Source: an uncultured Clostridia bacterium (GTDB taxonomy: Bacteria; Bacillota; Clostridia; Christensenellales; UBA1242). From it: 39,752 nucleotides of DNA. The notes beneath the pieces are model-generated. The model saw nothing but the letters and a program-made list of their open reading frames with translations, was not told the DNA's origin and ran no database searches. Of the stretch, positions 15,243-33,656 are shown piece by piece; position 1 is the stretch's first letter; each line of letters begins with the position of its first letter. The position numbers were made by a program, and so were the translations under genes. The DNA is taken from assembly GCA_949841045.1 (NCBI GenBank), contig CATKXS010000011.1:1-39752 (forward strand), written 5' to 3'.

Positions 15243-15671
15243 ATGGATAGAGCAAATAAAATTATGAAAGAAATGCAAGAGCATTATTTAAAAAAGCAAC
15301 AAGAGACTGCTGAAATAAACGAAAAAATTTTACATATTCCGAATGGATTAACTGATGAAGAAAGGAAAGTATACGAAGATATTATAGCAACTCTTAAAGA
15401 TAGTATTAATTATAGACTTTCGCCTACGGATACAGAACTTATTTGGCAGTATTGTCAAATTAAAGTAATAAGAGATAGAGCATGGCGAGAATATAATAAA
15501 AATCCAGATAGATATATCCGAATTGTAACTGGAATTTGTAGTGATGGTAAAACGCCAAAAGTTATGGTGAAAGAGAATGAGCACTATAAAACACTGCAAG
15601 ACTGCAATAAACAACTAGAGAAGATTTTAAAAGATTTAAGATTAACACCTCAGGAAAGGAGTAAAAAATAA
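15243..15671 (+). CDS. Phage terminase small subunit, P27-like
   Basis: 142 residues with an AGGATGGA site. The layout fits P27-type small terminases, which recognise phage DNA for packaging. There is a helical N-terminus, then LSPTDTELIWQYCQIKVIRDRAWREYNKNP, a short central MVKENEHYKTLQDCNKQLEKILKDLRL and the ending LTPQERSKK. The partner large subunit is not adjacent; the only one in the window is 17 kb away. It is the first gene of the segment between the 100-bp repeats. Confidence 0.75.
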   Translation: MDRANKIMKEMQEHYLKKQQETAEINEKILHIPNGLTDEERKVYEDIIATLKDSINYRLSPTDTELIWQYCQIKVIRDRAWREYNKNPDRYIRIVTGICSDGKTPKVMVKENEHYKTLQDCNKQLEKILKDLRLTPQERSKK

Positions 15672-15672
15672 A

Positions 15673-16713
15673 ATGGATGAGCTAAAAATTGAGTATATAG
15701 ATATAGAAAAATTGAATCATTATGAAAATAATTCAAAAATACATACAAAAGAGCAAATTGAGCATATTGTAAATTCAATTAGAGAATTTGGTTTTAATGA
15801 TCCTCTTGGAATTGCAGGAGAAGATAATATAGTTTTAGAGGGTAATGGCAGAGTTGAGGCAGCAAAGAAATTAGGTTTGACTAAATTGCCATGTGTTAGA
15901 CTCGACCATATGAGTAAAGAGGAATTAGAAGCATATGTTATTGCACATAATTCAACTAATTTAGAAACTGGATTTGATAGTCAAATGCTTTTAAGTGAAC
16001 TAGATAAGTAACAGTCAAAGTTTGATTTTAAAGACTTTGGATTGACAAATGAAATGTTTGAATTAGATGTACGGGATGATTATTATAAAGATTTTCTTTC
16101 TTTAAAGAAAAAGAAACTTGTAAGGAATGAATTTGAGATGGTGGGGGAATATGATTTGCCGCTCATTAAAAAGCAAAATATTGATATAGAAAAAATAGTG
16201 TTGATGAATTTTAGTAATACAAAATATAACGATGCAAAAAATAAGAATAAAACAATTCAATTTTTTACTTATGATTATAAATTTGATTATGTATATTCAC
16301 ATCCAGAATTTGCTGTTGAAAAATTAAAGCAATATTACTGTTTGCTTTCTCCAGATTATAGTTTATATACAGATATGTCATTATCTTTGCAAATTAAAAA
16401 TACATTTAAAAATCGCTGGTGTGGTGCTTATTTTCAAAGTCTTGGGCTAAGAGTCATCCCAACAATTGAATGGAGTGATGAGAGGAGTTTTAAGTTTTGC
16501 TTTGATGGAGTAGAAGAAGGAAGTGTTGTTGCAGTATCTACATATGGCAAACAAAAAATTGAGGAGGAATTTATGAAAGGTTATAACAGAATGTTGGAAA
16601 TTATTAAACCAAGTGCTATAATATGTTATGAAAAACCATTTCCAAAAATGGGAGGAAAAATAAAAGCATTTCCTTACAATCATAATGTGTGGAGGGATTG
16701 CTATGAGATTTGA
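15673..16713 (+). pseudogene. ParB-N/DUF4417 fusion broken by a stop codon
   Basis: The first part (15673-16011, 112 residues) is a ParB/Srx-type nuclease domain: IDIEKLNHYENNSKIHTKEQ, GEDNIVLEGNGRVEAAKKLGL and AYVIAHNSTNLETGF. A TAA follows ELDK. The same frame then continues QSKFDFKDFGLTNEMF and runs into a DUF4417 domain (LSPDYSLYTDMSLSLQ, RWCGAYFQSLGLRVIPTIEW, GSVVAVSTYG). The ATG at 16042 has no ribosome binding site. I therefore read this as one phage gene interrupted by a single nonsense codon. Two separate genes or a sequencing error remain possible. Confidence 0.72.
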
Positions 16714-16969
16714 TTCACAACTTTTTGGTGGTGGTGGAGGTTCAAGTGGTGGGAGTTTTAGGGGAAGTGCAAAACCTCCTAACACTAATCGTCCAAATTC
16801 GAAATATACTCAATATAAAAATGGTAAAAAACACCAAGAAAGATGGTATGATAAATTTGGTAATCCTAAACGAGACAGGGCTTACACTAATCATGGCAAT
16901 CCTAAACAACATCCAAAAGTTCCTCATGACCATGATTGGAATAATGGACAAAGAGGGGAATGGTATTAA
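16703..16969 (+). CDS. Gly-rich small protein with a polymorphic-toxin-like C-terminus
   Basis: 88 residues from the ATG that follows GGAGG; it overlaps the DUF4417 stop by 11 bp. A glycine-serine linker (FGGGGGSSGGSFRGS) leads to a basic, His/Asp-rich module: QYKNGKKHQERWYDKFGNPKRDR, TNHGNPKQHPKVPHDHDW. The 'HGNP..HP.VPHDHDW' pattern resembles C-terminal toxin modules of polymorphic toxins and phage-head-associated toxins. I cannot name the family with certainty. The next gene is in the place of an immunity protein. Confidence 0.62.
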   Translation: MRFDSQLFGGGGGSSGGSFRGSAKPPNTNRPNSKYTQYKNGKKHQERWYDKFGNPKRDRAYTNHGNPKQHPKVPHDHDWNNGQRGEWY

Positions 16970-16979
16970 AGGAGATTTT

Positions 16980-17276
16980 ATGAAGAATATAGTAAATCGT
17001 TGTAATGAACTGATGAAAAAAATTGAAAGTAAGCAAAAACTGACTTATGATGAATTTATTGAAATTGTAAGCTATGGGCTCGAAATGCAATTTTATTATA
17101 AAAAGAGAAAATTTGGCATAACTCATTTTGCTGGATATGAGTTTTATGAATGGGAAAAAGAAGAAGGGTATCAAAGTTATAATACAATTGAGGATTTTTC
17201 AAATAAGATTAATATTGAAGGCTTATTAGTAAAAGATATCTGGAATAAGGTTTCTCGTATAAATTTTGCAGATTGA
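16980..17276 (+). CDS. Small protein in immunity position
   Basis: 98 residues. The start is the ATG behind AAAGGAG, 10 bp after the Gly-rich gene. The ORF track merges it with an out-of-frame upstream stretch. It is helical (CNELMKKIESKQKLTYDEFIEIVSYGLEMQFYYKKRKFG), with a mixed aromatic C-terminal part (GYEFYEWEKEEGYQSYNTIEDF). Size, tight spacing and order match immunity proteins of toxin/immunity pairs. I recognise no named family. Confidence 0.65.
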   Translation: MKNIVNRCNELMKKIESKQKLTYDEFIEIVSYGLEMQFYYKKRKFGITHFAGYEFYEWEKEEGYQSYNTIEDFSNKINIEGLLVKDIWNKVSRINFAD

Positions 17277-17331
17277 TATAATGTTATTAAATAGTTTTTA
17301 AATTTGATGATGTTTTTGTTATAATAATACT

Positions 17332-18150
17332 ATGAGTATAATTTATAAACCTTGTGGAATGGCTAGAGAATATAGCCCGTATGCCTTAAATATTTATATT
17401 GGTTGCAGTCATGGCTGCAAATATTGTTATGCACCTCACACGCTTCAAAGGCGAGGCGAAGAGTATTTTATTAAACCTGAGCCACGAAAAGATATATTGA
17501 AATTATTAGAAAAAGATTTACAAAAGAATGTTTATACTGAGCAGGTGCTTTTGTCATTTGTAGGAGATGTTTATTGCGATAATACAGATGGAAGCCAGAC
17601 AACAAGGGAAGTGTTAAAACTTTTAAATGCATATAAAGTCCCTGTTGCAGTTCTTTCCAAAGGTGGAAAGAAAATGCTGAGAGATTTAGACATTTTTAAA
17701 GAGTTTGGCGACCGAATTTCTGTCGGGACTACTTTGACCTTTTTAGATGAAGAGAAAAGCAAACTTTTGGAGCCAAATGCAGCTTTGCCAGAAGAAAGGC
17801 TTGAAACTCTTAAAATTTTGCACGAGAATGGAATTAAAACATTTGCAAGTTTTGAGCCAACAATTGAGCCAGAGGAAAGTTTGAAGCTTATAAAACGTAC
17901 TCTTGCAGATAATTCTGTTGACCACTATAAAATTGGCAAACTTAATAATTTTAGGCGAGAGGATAAGTGGCAGGATTGGGGGAAATACTTACAGGATTGT
18001 GTGAATTTACTCCGTCCAACTGGCAAGCAGGTGTATTATAAGTTCTGTTTAAGAAAGCTCGCACCAGAAGTAGAACTAACGGATGAAGAGATAAATCCAG
18101 ATGAATATATTGTTAAAATAAAAAATAAACAACTTAGTATATATGATTAA
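17332..18150 (+). CDS. SPL-type radical SAM protein
   Basis: 272 residues. The CX3CX2C cluster-binding motif is CSHGCKYC (Cys25, 29, 32), in the setting IYIGCSHGCKYCYAPH that is typical of the spore-photoproduct-lyase-like radical SAM group. Later motifs are SFVGDVYCDN, VAVLSKGG, DRISVGTTLTF and FEPTIEPEESL. Related proteins are common in phage packaging regions, and their substrate is unknown. There is no ribosome binding site and a TATAAT ends only six bases before the ATG, so the mRNA may be leaderless. Confidence 0.85.
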   Translation: MSIIYKPCGMAREYSPYALNIYIGCSHGCKYCYAPHTLQRRGEEYFIKPEPRKDILKLLEKDLQKNVYTEQVLLSFVGDVYCDNTDGSQTTREVLKLLNAYKVPVAVLSKGGKKMLRDLDIFKEFGDRISVGTTLTFLDEEKSKLLEPNAALPEERLETLKILHENGIKTFASFEPTIEPEESLKLIKRTLADNSVDHYKIGKLNNFRREDKWQDWGKYLQDCVNLLRPTGKQVYYKFCLRKLAPEVELTDEEINPDEYIVKIKNKQLSIYD

Positions 18151-24082: not shown

Positions 24083-24228
24083 GCCGGGAGCTAGCAACTG
24101 AAGTTGCTATGGCGTCCGCCATACGAACCCCAGACCAAGTCCGAGTCGGAGCTTTTAAGCTCGGTCATTCGACTTTTCTGTTTCTCCCGAAACAGGTCTC
24201 ATACTACGAGCCCCCGGCAGTCCACCAA
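24083..24228 (+). repeat. Structured element ending in a copy of the tRNA-Lys 3' end
   Basis: The last 22 bases (24207-24228) are identical to the tRNA-Lys 3' end (24031-24052) including CCA. The left arm GCCGGGAGCT pairs with this copy (CCCGGC plus AGC). Inside lie four near-perfect hairpins: AGCAACTGAAGTTGCT, ATGGCGTCCGCCAT, GAGCTTTTAAGCTC and CTGTTTCTCCCGAAACAG. No ORF here looks real. Confidence 0.82.
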
Positions 24229-24238
24229 CCTAAACTCT

Positions 24239-24358
24239 GTAAGAACACTGAAACAAATTTTCAGGCATCGATTAAATCGCTCCACCAAACCATTTGCTGT
24301 ACGAACACTTAAACGAATGTTCAGACAGCGACTAAGTCGCTCAACCAAATATATAACG
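24239..24358 (+). repeat. Two 60-bp tandem repeats ending in ACCAA
   Basis: Units 24239-24298 and 24299-24358 align without gaps over most of their length. Each has a GAACACT...TTC inverted repeat, a second small hairpin (TCGATTAAATCG, GCGACTAAGTCGC), then TC(C/A)ACCAA, which resembles the end of a tRNA. A terminator-like hairpin follows at 24356. Confidence 0.75.
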
Positions 24359-24392: not shown

Positions 24393-24914
24393 TTAATCTT
24401 TAAAATCCACATATACTTTGCTTTCTTGGGGACCTATGCTATTTTGATATTTGCCGTTATATAATTTGATTTTTCCTAAAGTTTTCCAAAACATGATTTG
24501 TCCTATTTTCATGCCTTTATAAATTCTAAGGGGTTGGACAGCATGAAGTTGAAAAGTTAAGTTGCCTTTAAAACCAATATCTACAAGTTCGGCGGTTATT
24601 TGAACAAATAAACCAAGTCTTCCTGTCGAGCTTCTTCCAGTTAGAGTAGGCACGAAATAGTCGCTCCCCAAAATTTCTTTTGTAAAGCCAAGATAAATTT
24701 TGTTTGGCTTTAAGACAAGCCCTTCGTCTGGAATTTTTATGATTTTTGTTTTAAGTTCTTTTTTGCTGTCAAGAATTTCGTCATCATATACTTTTAAATA
24801 ATCGCCAAGCTCTACGTTATAACTGTTTGGATTTACATTTTTTTCGTTAAATGGTGAGATAGTAATTTTGTTTTTACGTACCTGTTTTTTGATTTCGTTG
24901 CCCGTAAGTATCAT
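24393..24914 (-). CDS. dCTP deaminase/dUTPase-fold protein, paralog A
   Basis: 173 residues, trimeric Dcd/Dut fold. The motifs GRSSTGRLGLFVQITAELVDIGFKG and MKIGQIMFW are typical of Dcd. The substrate-site Arg in GRSSTGR and the conserved Asp (LVDIGFKG) are kept. At the position of the catalytic Glu of dCTP deaminases (VLEFYN in E. coli) this protein has Gln (LTFQLH). It may therefore be a dUTPase-like or regulatory subunit rather than a deaminase. It is the last gene of the operon and overlaps paralog B by 4 bp. Confidence 0.85.
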   Translation of the reverse strand: MILTGNEIKKQVRKNKITISPFNEKNVNPNSYNVELGDYLKVYDDEILDSKKELKTKIIKIPDEGLVLKPNKIYLGFTKEILGSDYFVPTLTGRSSTGRLGLFVQITAELVDIGFKGNLTFQLHAVQPLRIYKGMKIGQIMFWKTLGKIKLYNGKYQNSIGPQESKVYVDFKD

Positions 24915-25432
24915 TTTAACTCCTTATAAAACTTGCTTATTTGTGCCGATTGAAATTGTTTGTATTCGCCATTTTTATATGTGCGAGTCTTTCTGCCTTT
25001 TATCTTCCAAAAGGTGACTTGACCTATCTTCATGAGGGGATAAACTCTAAGTGGCTGAACGACTTTAAGTTCAAGCGTCCATGAATGGAAAGTTCCCACA
25101 TGACCGAGCGGGGCGGTGATTTGAAGAAAAAGTCCAAGTCTGCCCATTGAACTTCGGCCTATAAGTTGTGTCACAAAATTATCGCTTCCGATTTTTTCAT
25201 AGGTGCTGGCGAGATATAATTTGCCAGGCTTTAAAATGTAACCGCTCTCTGGAATGATGATTTTCCTAAACTTTGGTTTTTCTTTTGCGTCTAGGTCAGT
25301 GTCAAATTCAATAAGCTGGTCAGCAAGCCGATAATTATAGCTATTTGGATTTAATAATTCTTCATTAAAAGGCTGGATTTTAATGCGATTTTTACGCACT
25401 TGTTTGATAATTTCTAATTTTGTTAAAATCAT
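24911..25432 (-). CDS. dCTP deaminase-like protein, paralog B
   Basis: 173 residues, similar throughout to the next gene (both begin MILT..EI.KQVRKN, and both have NPNSYN, GRSS.GRLGLF.QITA and VQPLR.Y..MKIGQ). The catalytic Glu is present (WTLELKVV). The conserved Asp region is altered to TAPLGHVGTFHSW, with no Asp and one or two extra residues. dCTP deaminases make dUTP for dTMP synthesis. The two products could form a mixed trimer, but that is inferred. Confidence 0.85.
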   Translation of the reverse strand: MILTKLEIIKQVRKNRIKIQPFNEELLNPNSYNYRLADQLIEFDTDLDAKEKPKFRKIIIPESGYILKPGKLYLASTYEKIGSDNFVTQLIGRSSMGRLGLFLQITAPLGHVGTFHSWTLELKVVQPLRVYPLMKIGQVTFWKIKGRKTRTYKNGEYKQFQSAQISKFYKELK

Positions 25433-25466: not shown

Positions 25467-26177
25467 TTAAGATTTGATAGTTGCCCATGCCTCAGGGGTT
25501 CTGAAGTCTATAGGTAGCAAATTTAGATATGAGTCAATTCTAATAATAAGTTGAAAGGTGTTATGGCAGTTTTGTGCGATTAAAAAGTCTCGAATATTGT
25601 CGATTATATTATGTAATTTTGAAATTATATAAGAAATATCATAATTACTAAAATGGCTTTTCTCTATCATTTTTTCATTAAATCTTTTTACATGAAATAT
25701 ATTGCCATGATTATAAGGAAATTCAACCATTAAATAGGGTGAATTATCTCTTGTTGATACGCCAGGAACGACTGAGGGAATAAAACTTATTCTGTCTATA
25801 AAATCGGTGTTTTCTTGGGTACTGAATTGAACAATTGCAAGTTTGTCACTATAATAGTTCTCATTTTGCTTAAATTTGTGACATTCTACACAAAAGATAA
25901 ACCTATCTTCAAATTCTTCTGCACCTATTTTAAGGTCTGATAAAGTTTTGAAAAAACGATTGTCCTTGCATTTTATATCGCTCAAAAATGCATATTTATT
26001 GTCGCCACTTCGCTTTAAAACTAGGGTGTCATAACTGCCAGACAAATTTAACTCTATAAGTTCTTTTTTGGAATCAACGAAATAAAGTTCAATTCGATTT
26101 TTGTTAAAATAATATGGAAAATTCTCATACAAGAATTTTAAACCTAAAACTCTATTAAAAGTTGGCAATTCTATCAT
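25467..26177 (-). CDS. Unknown protein in a nucleotide operon
   Basis: 236 residues. I do not recognise it. It starts by 4-bp overlap with the kinase gene and is followed 34 bp later by the Dcd pair. There is no signal or membrane segment. Segments that look structured are LYFVDSKKELIELNLSGSYDTLVLKRSGDNKYAFLSDIKCKD (beta-rich), ECHKFKQNENYYSDKLAIVQFS, a central SFIPSVVPGVSTRDNSPYLMVEFPYNHGN and a helical C-terminus. It has few cysteines and no P-loop. Only the context suggests a link with nucleotides. Confidence 0.75.
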   Translation of the reverse strand: MIELPTFNRVLGLKFLYENFPYYFNKNRIELYFVDSKKELIELNLSGSYDTLVLKRSGDNKYAFLSDIKCKDNRFFKTLSDLKIGAEEFEDRFIFCVECHKFKQNENYYSDKLAIVQFSTQENTDFIDRISFIPSVVPGVSTRDNSPYLMVEFPYNHGNIFHVKRFNEKMIEKSHFSNYDISYIISKLHNIIDNIRDFLIAQNCHNTFQLIIRIDSYLNLLPIDFRTPEAWATIKS

Positions 26178-26698
26178 AATTTTTCCTCGCTTAATATTTT
26201 ATTAATCAGATTTAACAGGTTGTTTTGATATTCTTCAATTGTGCCAAGATTGTCGAGTTCATAGTCGCAAGGAAGTTCGTTTTGCCATTCAAGGCTGAGT
26301 TTTGTGTTTGCCTCAGTGTGGTCTTGGCGCTCTCTTTTGTAGCCATTTATTTTTATAAAAACAAAGCCTAAATCTTTTAAATATTGAAAATCTGGTGGTC
26401 TGCAATCATCATTTGTTATAATGCCGTCATAGTCATAAAAATTGTCTAGCTTTTTAGTGAAATTATCGAGAATAAAAGTTGGATTCTCTTTTCGTATTTT
26501 GCTTCCTAGAAATTGCAAGAGTTCGCCGTCTTGTTTTTCTTTCATTTGAGTGCCAAGAAAGGTATAAAAATAATCTTGAAGTTCATAGAGGGGAGAGGCG
26601 AGTTTAATGTTTTTGATTTTAAAGTGTTTTTCCAAAATCTTTATGGCCCTGCTTTTACCATATCCGCTTGGTGCAATAAAACAAATCTTTTTATTCAT
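26174..26698 (-). CDS. P-loop kinase-like protein (possible dNMP kinase)
   Basis: 174 residues from the ATG at 26698, which has an AAGGAG site. The ORF-track start is 22 codons earlier and would include the operator in coding sequence. Walker A is APSGYGKSRA near the N-terminus. Later come a TNDDCRPPDFQYLKDLGFVFIKI segment and NGYKRERQDHTEANTKLSLEWQ, which fits the lid and base region of phage-type deoxynucleoside monophosphate kinases or dephospho-CoA-kinase-like folds. It is the first gene of an operon with two Dcd-like proteins, so nucleotide phosphorylation is likely. Confidence 0.75.
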   Translation of the reverse strand: MNKKICFIAPSGYGKSRAIKILEKHFKIKNIKLASPLYELQDYFYTFLGTQMKEKQDGELLQFLGSKIRKENPTFILDNFTKKLDNFYDYDGIITNDDCRPPDFQYLKDLGFVFIKINGYKRERQDHTEANTKLSLEWQNELPCDYELDNLGTIEEYQNNLLNLINKILSEEKL

Positions 26699-26716: not shown

Positions 26717-26735
26717 ATGTGTAAAATTTACGCTT
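26717..26735. promoter_or_regulatory. Operator of the kinase-Dcd operon
   Basis: ATGTGTAAAATTTACGCTT matches the palindrome before the NrtR-like gene (ATGCGTAAAATTTACGCAT when read on the minus strand) at 17 of 19 positions. It is 19 bp ahead of the kinase start. I could not identify a clean promoter around it. Confidence 0.78.
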
Positions 26736-26798: not shown

Positions 26799-27488
26799 CT
26801 ATTTATAAAAACTTATTGATGAGATTTTGTCAGTAAATCTATAAAGTTTGGTTGCTTTTTTATTTTCTTCTTTTATGGTTTGGTTTGTTTCAGCTATTAT
26901 ACCGTCAGACAATAGTTTTTTTCTGAAATTTCGTCTGTCAAGTTCTTTATCCAGTATTTTCTCGTATGCGATTTGAAGTTCGGGCAGGGTGAAAGTGTCT
27001 GGATATAATTTCTTTATGATAGTCGAAGTAAAGATTTTCTCTTTTAATGTTGCAATAGCTTTTTCTAGTATTTCCTGATGGTCATAACCAAGAGGGGGCA
27101 CTCTGTCTATCTCAAACCAGTCAGCATCTGATGCTTTTTCAGTTTGTTTGAACTTTTCAATAATACTAGAGTCGCTGACGCCAATATATCCTATTGCAAT
27201 CATTCTGCGAATAGGTGAGCGGTCTGGTTTTGTGAAAACATCAAACATTTCAAAGTCTATATTTTTAATACAGGTCTTTTCATAAAGCTCACGTTTCATT
27301 GCTTCTTCGCCAGTTTCAGTATTGTAAGCACATCCTCCAACCATTATCCATTTGCCTTTAAATGGCTCGTTTTTTCTTTTGATTAGAAGTACTTTAAATT
27401 TGCCTTTATCAATGGTGAAAAGTGCGAGAACTACGTGCAAACCTTGATTATTATATCGAGGGTCGTTTGCCTTCATTTTTGCCTCCAA
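26799..27488 (-). CDS. NrtR-like Nudix transcriptional regulator
   Basis: 229 residues. The N-terminal Nudix domain (about 15-150) has a degraded box. GX5E and REL are kept, but the following EExG reads EKTC, so hydrolysis is unlikely. The C-terminal 70 residues (FTLPELQIAYEKILDKELDRRNFRKKLLSDGII) form the winged-helix domain of the NrtR group, which senses nucleotide metabolites and often represses NAD genes. It is divergent from nothing and transcribed alone. A perfect palindrome fills its own promoter spacer, so it is probably autorepressed. The ligand is unknown. Confidence 0.87.
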   Translation of the reverse strand: MEAKMKANDPRYNNQGLHVVLALFTIDKGKFKVLLIKRKNEPFKGKWIMVGGCAYNTETGEEAMKRELYEKTCIKNIDFEMFDVFTKPDRSPIRRMIAIGYIGVSDSSIIEKFKQTEKASDADWFEIDRVPPLGYDHQEILEKAIATLKEKIFTSTIIKKLYPDTFTLPELQIAYEKILDKELDRRNFRKKLLSDGIIAETNQTIKEENKKATKLYRFTDKISSISFYK

Positions 27489-27492
27489 ATAT

Positions 27493-27521
27493 ATTATGCG
27501 TAAATTTTACGCATTTGTCAA
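27493..27521 (-). promoter_or_regulatory. Promoter with embedded NrtR-like operator
   Basis: On the minus strand TTGACA and CATAAT are 17 bp apart. The palindrome ATGCGTAAATTTTACGCAT (27496-27514; 9-bp perfect arms around one base) covers the whole spacer and part of the -10. Repressor bound here would block RNA polymerase directly. Confidence 0.88.
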
Positions 27522-32132: not shown

Positions 32133-32219
32133 GACTTTATTTTAAAATGTTTGATTACCTTTTCGCAAATCAATATTTGTCGAAGAGAGGCTAATATTAT
32201 ACAATTTAGGCAGGTGAGT

Positions 32220-33656
32220 ATGAATGAAAAATTAAAAGAATTGAAACGAAAGTTAAAACTTGTCAATGATGAAATAAAATTAAGGCAAAAAAATGATTAC
32301 CTTTCGAGATATAACACGGGCAAGTTTATACATAAAAAGCAAATTGAATTTCACAAATGTAAAAAGAAAAATAGGTGGGTGTTTGGTGGCAACCGCTCGG
32401 GAAAGACAGAATGTGGTGCGGTTGAAACGGTTTATCTTGCAAGAGGAATTCATCCATATAAAGATAATAAGCCAATATCATGTTGGGTGGTGAGTTTGTC
32501 AAGACAGGTTCAAAGAGATGTCGCTCAAGAGAAGATTCTTCACTATTTAAGACCTGATTGGATTGCAGATATTGTCATGTCAAGCGGAAGAGCGGATAGT
32601 GCTGAGAGCGGAATTATCGACTTTATTTTGGTGAGAAATGTGTTTGGGTCACTTTCAAAAATAGGGTTTAAAAGTTGTGACCAAGGTCGTGAAAAATTTC
32701 AAGGCTCTTCGCTTGATTTTGTTTGGTTTGACGAAGAACCGCCTTTTGATATTTATCAAGAATGCAGAATGAGAGTTTTAGATAGAAAGGGAGAAATCTT
32801 TGGTACTATGACACCGCTTAAAGGTTTGACATGGGTGTACAATGAGATTTATCTAAATACAAATCATGATGATAATGTTTGGCATATTTCAATTGAATGG
32901 GCAGATAATCCTTACCTTGACAAGGGAGAGATTGAAGCGATGACAAAGTCTTTGTCAGAGGAAGAACTCGAAAGTAGGCGATATGGCAAATTTATGCTGT
33001 GCGGGGGACTTGTTTATAATGAATTTGATGAGAGCGTTCATGTAATTGAACCCTTTGATGTGCCAAAAGATTGGTACGATAACATTTCAATTGACCCTGG
33101 TCTTAATAATCCACTTTCAGCGCATTGGTATGCTAAAGATTATGACGGAAACGTCTATGTTATCGCCGAACATTTTGATAAAGGAAAGGACGTTGCATAT
33201 CATGCAAGTCGAATTAAAGCTATTTCAGAAAGGCTTGGTTGGCATTACTATAATGGAAAAATTAGGGCGCTTATTGATAGTGCTGCAATGCAGAGAACAC
33301 TCGCCAGTATAAAAAGTGTAGTCGAGCTCTTTGCTGAGAATGATATTCTTGTCAATCCAAAAGTCAACAAGGACATGTATAGTGGTATTTCAAGAGTTAA
33401 GAGATATTTAAAGGACGGAGAAGGTAAACCTCATCTATTTATATTTAAAAATTGTATAAACATGATTGAAGAAATCAAAGGATACTGGTGGGGAAATGAG
33501 GACCTTCCTATTAAGAAAGATGACCACTGTTTGGATGAATTGAGATATTATCTTATGAGCATAAATCAAAATGAGCGGTTAAAAGAAGAAAAATCGGCTA
33601 TTCAAAGGGAAAAAGAGAGGCTTATTAAAAAACTTGACCGCTCTAGGCGAAAATAA
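32220..33656 (+). CDS. Phage terminase large subunit
   Basis: 478 residues from the ATG at 32220 (AGGTGAG site). It is the packaging motor ATPase plus nuclease. Walker A GGNRSGKTE is at 56-64, Walker B LDFVWFDEEPP near 172, and the coupling motif GTMTPLKGLTW follows. The RNase-H-like nuclease has Asp in SIDPGLNNPLSAHW (about 292), LIDSAAM (about 352) and DDHCLDELRYYL (about 435). It looks complete, yet no portal, capsid or small terminase is adjacent. The C-terminal 40 residues are charged coiled coil. Confidence 0.9.
   Translation: MNEKLKELKRKLKLVNDEIKLRQKNDYLSRYNTGKFIHKKQIEFHKCKKKNRWVFGGNRSGKTECGAVETVYLARGIHPYKDNKPISCWVVSLSRQVQRDVAQEKILHYLRPDWIADIVMSSGRADSAESGIIDFILVRNVFGSLSKIGFKSCDQGREKFQGSSLDFVWFDEEPPFDIYQECRMRVLDRKGEIFGTMTPLKGLTWVYNEIYLNTNHDDNVWHISIEWADNPYLDKGEIEAMTKSLSEEELESRRYGKFMLCGGLVYNEFDESVHVIEPFDVPKDWYDNISIDPGLNNPLSAHWYAKDYDGNVYVIAEHFDKGKDVAYHASRIKAISERLGWHYYNGKIRALIDSAAMQRTLASIKSVVELFAENDILVNPKVNKDMYSGISRVKRYLKDGEGKPHLFIFKNCINMIEEIKGYWWGNEDLPIKKDDHCLDELRYYLMSINQNERLKEEKSAIQREKERLIKKLDRSRRK

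Follow-up and report, generated by a model that had tools for sequence, protein, structure and literature searches.

The question raised by this locus is why a bacterium should encode, side by side, two proteins of the dCTP deaminase (DCD) family that each lack a different active-site residue. The locus lies in a window of 39,752 nucleotides (the whole stretch of DNA that was analysed) from an uncultured Clostridia bacterium, and the two genes, here called paralogs A and B, are transcribed in the order B then A:

24393..24914, minus strand: paralog A, a DCD-family open reading frame of 173 aa with D112, Q122, an intact RSSxGR motif and an intact C-terminal tail (GKYQ..GPQ.S)
24911..25432, minus strand: paralog B, a DCD-family open reading frame of 173 aa with E121, H111, Gln at the His of HVTA, and the tail Lys lost
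24911..24914, minus strand: ATGA overlap of the B stop and the A start (translational coupling); most related loci share this -4 overlap

An initial annotation, made from the sequence alone, had placed two reading frames with the DCD/dUTPase fold at these coordinates, and both the open reading frame list and the matches to the Pfam DCD model PF22769 agree (cut-off 27; A, E 5.6e-39, 134.1 bits; B, E 2.7e-30, 105.9 bits). The 4-bp overlap that it took to couple the pair is the ATGA listed above. The TIGR02274 equivalog model for dCTP deaminase (cut-off 92.8) scores A above the cut-off at 110.9, though A is without the deaminase Glu, and B below it at 80.8, though B has that residue. The archaeal dUTPase model NF002598 matches A weakly, and the trimeric dUTPase model PF00692 has no match at E <= 0.01 in the whole window genome, A and B included. 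Automatic annotation calls the genes of such pairs plain dCTP deaminase or hypothetical protein, labels that mask the pair.

Alignment with solved DCD structures in the PDB places D112 of A and H111 of B at the catalytic Asp (D128 of E. coli), and Q122 of A and E121 of B at the deaminase Glu (E138 of E. coli, E145 of M. jannaschii). A has the catalytic Asp of dUTPase motif III and B does not, whereas B has the general-base Glu of dCTP deaminases and A does not. Neither protein (A is D/Q, B is H/E) has the two together in one chain, which is the trait of the bifunctional dCTP deaminase-dUTPases (DCD-DUT). The RSSxGR phosphate-binding motif is found in both, and the Arg/Ser/Arg of the phosphate grip is kept (R94, S95 and R99 in A; R93, S94 and R98 in B). 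The initial annotation had described the same exchange of residues and was correct in this, but its account was incomplete: besides the transcript order, it missed that the His of the HVTA allosteric loop is Gln in both A and B, and that the C-terminal tail Lys is gone from B. The Gln of A is the same change as in the engineered M. jannaschii E145Q variant (PDB 3gf0, titled as a pyrophosphate complex), and in human dUTPase an Asp-to-Asn change abolishes hydrolysis and does not weaken binding (PMC4827122). These two variants suggest that B can deaminate without hydrolysis and that A can hydrolyse without deamination. It should be noted that B may be inactive, because its HVTA His and tail Lys are lost as well.

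The alignment of orthologous pairs, which had been proposed as a check, showed conservation of this pattern. Every one of the 38 two-gene loci found, from Bacillota, Saccharibacteria, Actinomycetota, Rhizobium and Babeliaceae, has one gene with the Asp but not the Glu and one with the Glu but not the Asp, although some of these loci are near-duplicates (distinct pairs number about 33) and the genome search that yielded most of them had B as its query and is therefore biased towards such pairs. Because the pattern is true of every two-gene locus, those from three genera of the window's family among them, it is not a matter of chance. The counts for the Asp and Glu columns themselves are not independent evidence, because the A and B classes were assigned from those columns; the one-of-each rule and the remaining columns are. 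Among those columns, the tail Lys is present in 38/38 A proteins versus 7/40 B proteins, the Trp before TLE in 40/40 B versus 6/38 A, and Gln for the HVTA His in 36/40 B versus 10/38 A, and His stands at the hairpin Gly in 38/40 B. The gene order is B-A at 37 of the 38 loci, 36 of these with adjacent genes, and most pairs overlap by 4 bp. A Streptomyces locus (L145) alone has the order A-B, and at another locus (L097) a 361-aa kinase-like gene separates B from A.

The pair is rare and patchy. It is present in 3 of 147 genomes of the window's own family (G000, G091 and G094), where the A proteins are 79-82% and the B proteins 71-73% identical to those of the window and the residues are the same. 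A sample of 398 genomes of the phylum had it in the window genome only. A scan of one genome per species added pairs from Clostridia, Bacilli, Saccharibacteria, Streptomyces, Kitasatospora, Nocardia, Arthrobacter and one Babeliaceae bacterium, and a plasmid collection added pairs from Streptomyces, Nonomuraea, Nocardiopsis and two Rhizobium plasmids. Phage origin was considered and rejected: in a set of 50,697 phage records, every matching record had exactly one DCD-like place (147/147 and 196/196), which means that phages are not known to carry genes paired in this way.

Purifying selection acts on both genes: dN was well below dS for A and for B in 7/7 genome pairs (ratios of about 0.04 to 0.48), which rules out decay into pseudogenes. 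In the tree, the B proteins form one clade (support 95/84) and the canonical proteins another (98/99), while A is poorly resolved. The separation of the B clade from the canonical clade fits one ancient duplication, and the simplest history is a single duplication followed by spread. Stand-alone relatives carry both Asp and Glu, with one exception in genome G089 (L038:4960-5535), a DCD that keeps the Asp, has Gln for the Glu and falls in the canonical clade. The Glu was lost independently in this protein, which is perhaps a dUTPase; PF00692 was not found in that genome (77% complete), and the gene adjoins HD, ThyA/thymidylate synthase and dCMP deaminase-like genes.

Alongside the residue pattern, conservation, gene coupling, selection and operon context that were observed, we infer a complex, its reactions and substrate, and which subunit lends its grip to which site. 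At slightly under even odds (a probability of about 0.48), A and B descend from a duplicated bifunctional dCTP deaminase-dUTPase and are the two subunits of an obligate hetero-oligomer, which is probably a mixed trimer. B would provide the deaminase-type hairpin, with the Glu kept and the hydrolytic Asp lost, and A would provide the dUTPase-type hairpin, with the Asp kept and the Glu lost, together with a phosphate grip and a C-terminal tail that are both intact. Most likely, a cytosine (deoxy)nucleoside triphosphate would be deaminated at sites with a B hairpin, and its uracil product would be hydrolysed to the monophosphate where an A hairpin forms the site.

How the two subunits could share sites depends on where the residues lie. 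The AlphaFold2 monomer model of B (mean pLDDT 85) has strands at 101-105 and 114-124, with H111 between them and E121 on the second, and it matches the M. tuberculosis DCD-dUTPase 2qxx with Z 22.2 and rmsd 2.4 over 173 residues. Along the sequence, ten residues separate the Asp position from the Glu position, the spacing also seen between Asp128 and Glu138 of E. coli. The initial annotation had raised the idea of a mixed trimer with shared active sites. In its literal form, a single active site taking its Asp from one subunit and its Glu from the other, this would account for losses that appear complementary; however, the predicted model puts both positions on the hairpin of one chain, so a site with both residues could not be rebuilt by mixing chains in a trimer, and this form is highly improbable. 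What mixed chains can give, going by this model, is two kinds of site, one with the B hairpin and its Glu and one with the A hairpin and its Asp; in such sites, one subunit's hairpin could be combined with an RSSxGR grip and a tail that come from a different subunit. The broader idea of a mixed A/B complex fared better, being backed by a pair that is conserved, mostly coupled, complementary throughout, and in two cases has a B without RSSxGR.

Those two cases carry much of the argument. In DCD and dUTPase structures, motif 2 is supplied by the neighbouring subunit. RSSxGR was lost only in the B proteins of L145 (10354-11070; Streptomyces NBC_00161) and L097 (559-1074), where the partner A keeps the motif and B keeps WTLE. 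Since the active sites of the dUTPase superfamily lie at intersubunit clefts (PMC4827122), these two B proteins would have to borrow the grip from A. Among the sequence observations, this loss argues most strongly for an obligate A/B complex. Both proteins are on long branches, and their joining in the tree is less sure than the motif loss itself. The same cases bear on a rather improbable alternative, in which two independent homotrimers share an operon and act in sequence, B as deaminase and A as dUTPase, with no complex between them. Each protein of most pairs has a full RSSxGR grip and could in principle form its own sites. However, two pairs have a grip-less B, the tail Lys is gone from B yet retained in A, and neither the strict one-of-each rule nor the overlapping genes fit independent enzymes well.

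The losses in B can also be read in another way, and this is the main rival, raised by the initial annotation too, though an unlikely one. Here one subunit would be catalytic, most likely A, whose Asp, grip and tail are intact, and the other would be a pseudoenzyme, binding nucleotide and controlling activity or stability. B has lost the Asp, the loop His and the tail Lys, and two B proteins have lost RSSxGR, as in a degenerating pseudoenzyme. Additionally, the altered HVTA loop is the allosteric dTTP loop of DCDs and carries their dTTP-driven cooperativity, which runs via the central channel (PMC4827122). However, the deaminase Glu is present in 40/40 B proteins and WTLE is kept throughout, which a pure regulator would not need, with the reservation that the B class is partly defined by this Glu.

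In the window, the pair closes a run of five co-directional minus-strand genes:

26799..27476, minus strand: NrtR-type regulator with a Nudix-like domain and a winged helix (open reading frame listed to 27488; likely start ATG 27476)
26174..26698, minus strand: P-loop (d)NMP kinase-like protein (open reading frame listed to 26764; likely start 26698 with a Shine-Dalgarno sequence)
25467..26177, minus strand: 236-aa protein with a predicted ATP-grasp fold, a conserved neighbour in Clostridia loci
27493..27521, minus strand: sigma-70-type promoter of the operon, TTGACA-17-CATAAT (11/12 matches)
27496..27514, no strand assigned: palindromic operator ATGCGTAAAATTTACGCAT, within the promoter spacer
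26718..26734, no strand assigned: second operator-like copy with 2 mismatches, just upstream of the kinase

The kinase-like product matches PHROG 139, deoxynucleoside monophosphate kinase (E 1.2e-13), and the model of the 236-aa protein matches the ATP-grasp fold with Z 11.6. The regulator matches PF21906 (NrtR winged helix, 72.7 bits) and PF00293 (Nudix, 50.2 bits), and scores 115.6 against NF050029 (cut-off 400). An NrtR gene is present in nine Bacillota loci, each with TTGACA and, after it, a palindrome or related site extending into the -10 element; L036, L037 and L039 have the same operator arrangement with the same or a related palindrome. The window genome holds no further operator copies within 2 mismatches, so the regulator probably serves only this operon. 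The arrangement resembles NrtR-regulated operons in the NrtR-type regulator and the palindromic operator in the promoter, but the regulator is far below the NF050029 cut-off and the operator is found at no other genes.

The clusters that hold relatives of the pair vary and are of a nucleotide or natural-product-like kind. Among 40 loci, a (d)NMP kinase-like gene is the most frequent neighbour (25), followed by methyltransferase (16), glycosyltransferase (15) and cytidine deaminase-like genes (11), among others. Such surroundings point to dedicated nucleotide pathways rather than to the supply of dTTP, and given their variety the substrate may not be dCTP. Two simpler roles were rejected. The window genome is without PF00692, yet G091 and G094 encode a separate dUTPase besides the pair, so in those genomes the pair is not simply a housekeeping dUTPase. 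Supply of dUMP to ThyA does not fit a window genome that has no PF00303 match and in which Thy1 is matched only weakly, on another contig. The published description of a 4'-thiothymidine cluster does not mention a deaminase (PMC12691670).

A further alternative starts from these clusters. As an enzyme of dedicated biosynthetic or defence clusters, the pair could have specialised in a cytosine nucleotide that is modified or non-deoxy, with loss of the Asp altering sugar recognition or chemistry rather than dividing the labour. The clusters hold kinase, methyltransferase, radical SAM, glycosyltransferase, aminoacyl-tRNA-synthetase-like, ATP-grasp, MccF-like or EPSP-synthase-like genes, and a Nocardia pair adjoins a 676-aa TIR-domain protein, all of which would suit such a role; however, no one context is common to all loci, and we regard it as improbable.

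Several individual clusters deserve mention. In Rhizobium and Arthrobacter (L144:11979-13016 and L066:7974-8960), (d)NMP kinase-like and cytidine/dCMP deaminase-like domains are fused. In Nocardia (L059:3387-5417 and L062:3339-5402), the TIR-domain protein, whose N-terminal part is HD-hydrolase-like by eye, adjoins the kinase, B, A and a third DCD with both Asp and Glu, and this cluster looks defence-like. At L046 (1516-2961), a RelA/SpoT-type protein (HD, RelA_SpoT, TGS) has an MccF-like peptidase, a methyltransferase and the pair as cluster-mates.

The pair differs from each known system with which it was compared. Bifunctional DCD-DUT enzymes (M. jannaschii 1ogh/1pkh, M. tuberculosis 2qxx, B. 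halodurans 4xjc) are alike in fold, length, RSSxGR, hairpin and, for A, the tail, and the best structural match of B is among them (2qxx); however, they are homotrimers with Asp and Glu in one chain, whereas here the residues are divided over two co-encoded proteins. With monofunctional dCTP deaminase (E. coli Dcd, TIGR02274), A shares a score above the cut-off and B the Glu, but B is below the cut-off, and E. coli Dcd retains Asp128, His121 and the tail Lys, unlike B. The trimeric dUTPases (PF00692) and the archaeal DCD-fold dUTPases (2zdc, 8y1w) have the essential catalytic Asp that A keeps; unlike these, A is DCD-like by sequence. Anti-phage dCTP deaminase defence systems also exist. They belong to the same family by name, and the Nocardia relative at L059 adjoins a TIR-domain protein, but they differ from the pair in architecture, no defence genes were recognised beside the window pair, and PADLOC defence models did not match A or B up to E 1.

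The pair is a real, conserved variant of a well-known enzyme family and apparently an undescribed one, since the searchable literature yielded no account of DCD paralogs that are paired, heteromeric or inactive. The dUTPase superfamily has been described as homotrimeric (PMC4827122). If the split-enzyme reading is true, nature has already separated the residues, and this heteromeric version with its divided labour could be used to test directly how one site does two reactions. The pair would also serve as a marker for uncharacterised clusters in bacteria that range from Clostridia to Streptomyces, Rhizobium and Saccharibacteria; these clusters probably produce or break down unusual nucleotides. 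A wider proposal, which we put forward tentatively and consider possible but doubtful, is that the pair is across the whole family an obligately heteromeric member of the dUTPase superfamily, with deamination and hydrolysis split over two hairpins and one subunit lending the phosphate grip, and that it would serve as a movable module making uracil-type nucleotides for varied nucleotide-derived products or defence signals.

Some minor observations remain. In Embleya (L147:8001-8696), B appears to form an in-frame fusion with the C-terminal tail of A, the grip and hairpin of A being missing, and a separate A-like match lies about 10 kb off. In the window itself, an imperfect tandem repeat (24221-24349, period 60, 2.2 copies) lies directly downstream of A. 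By eye, phage-like genes at 15243-18150 (small terminase-like, ParB-like and SPL-type radical SAM) and a large terminase-like gene at 32151-33656 stand amid housekeeping genes and may be prophage remnants.
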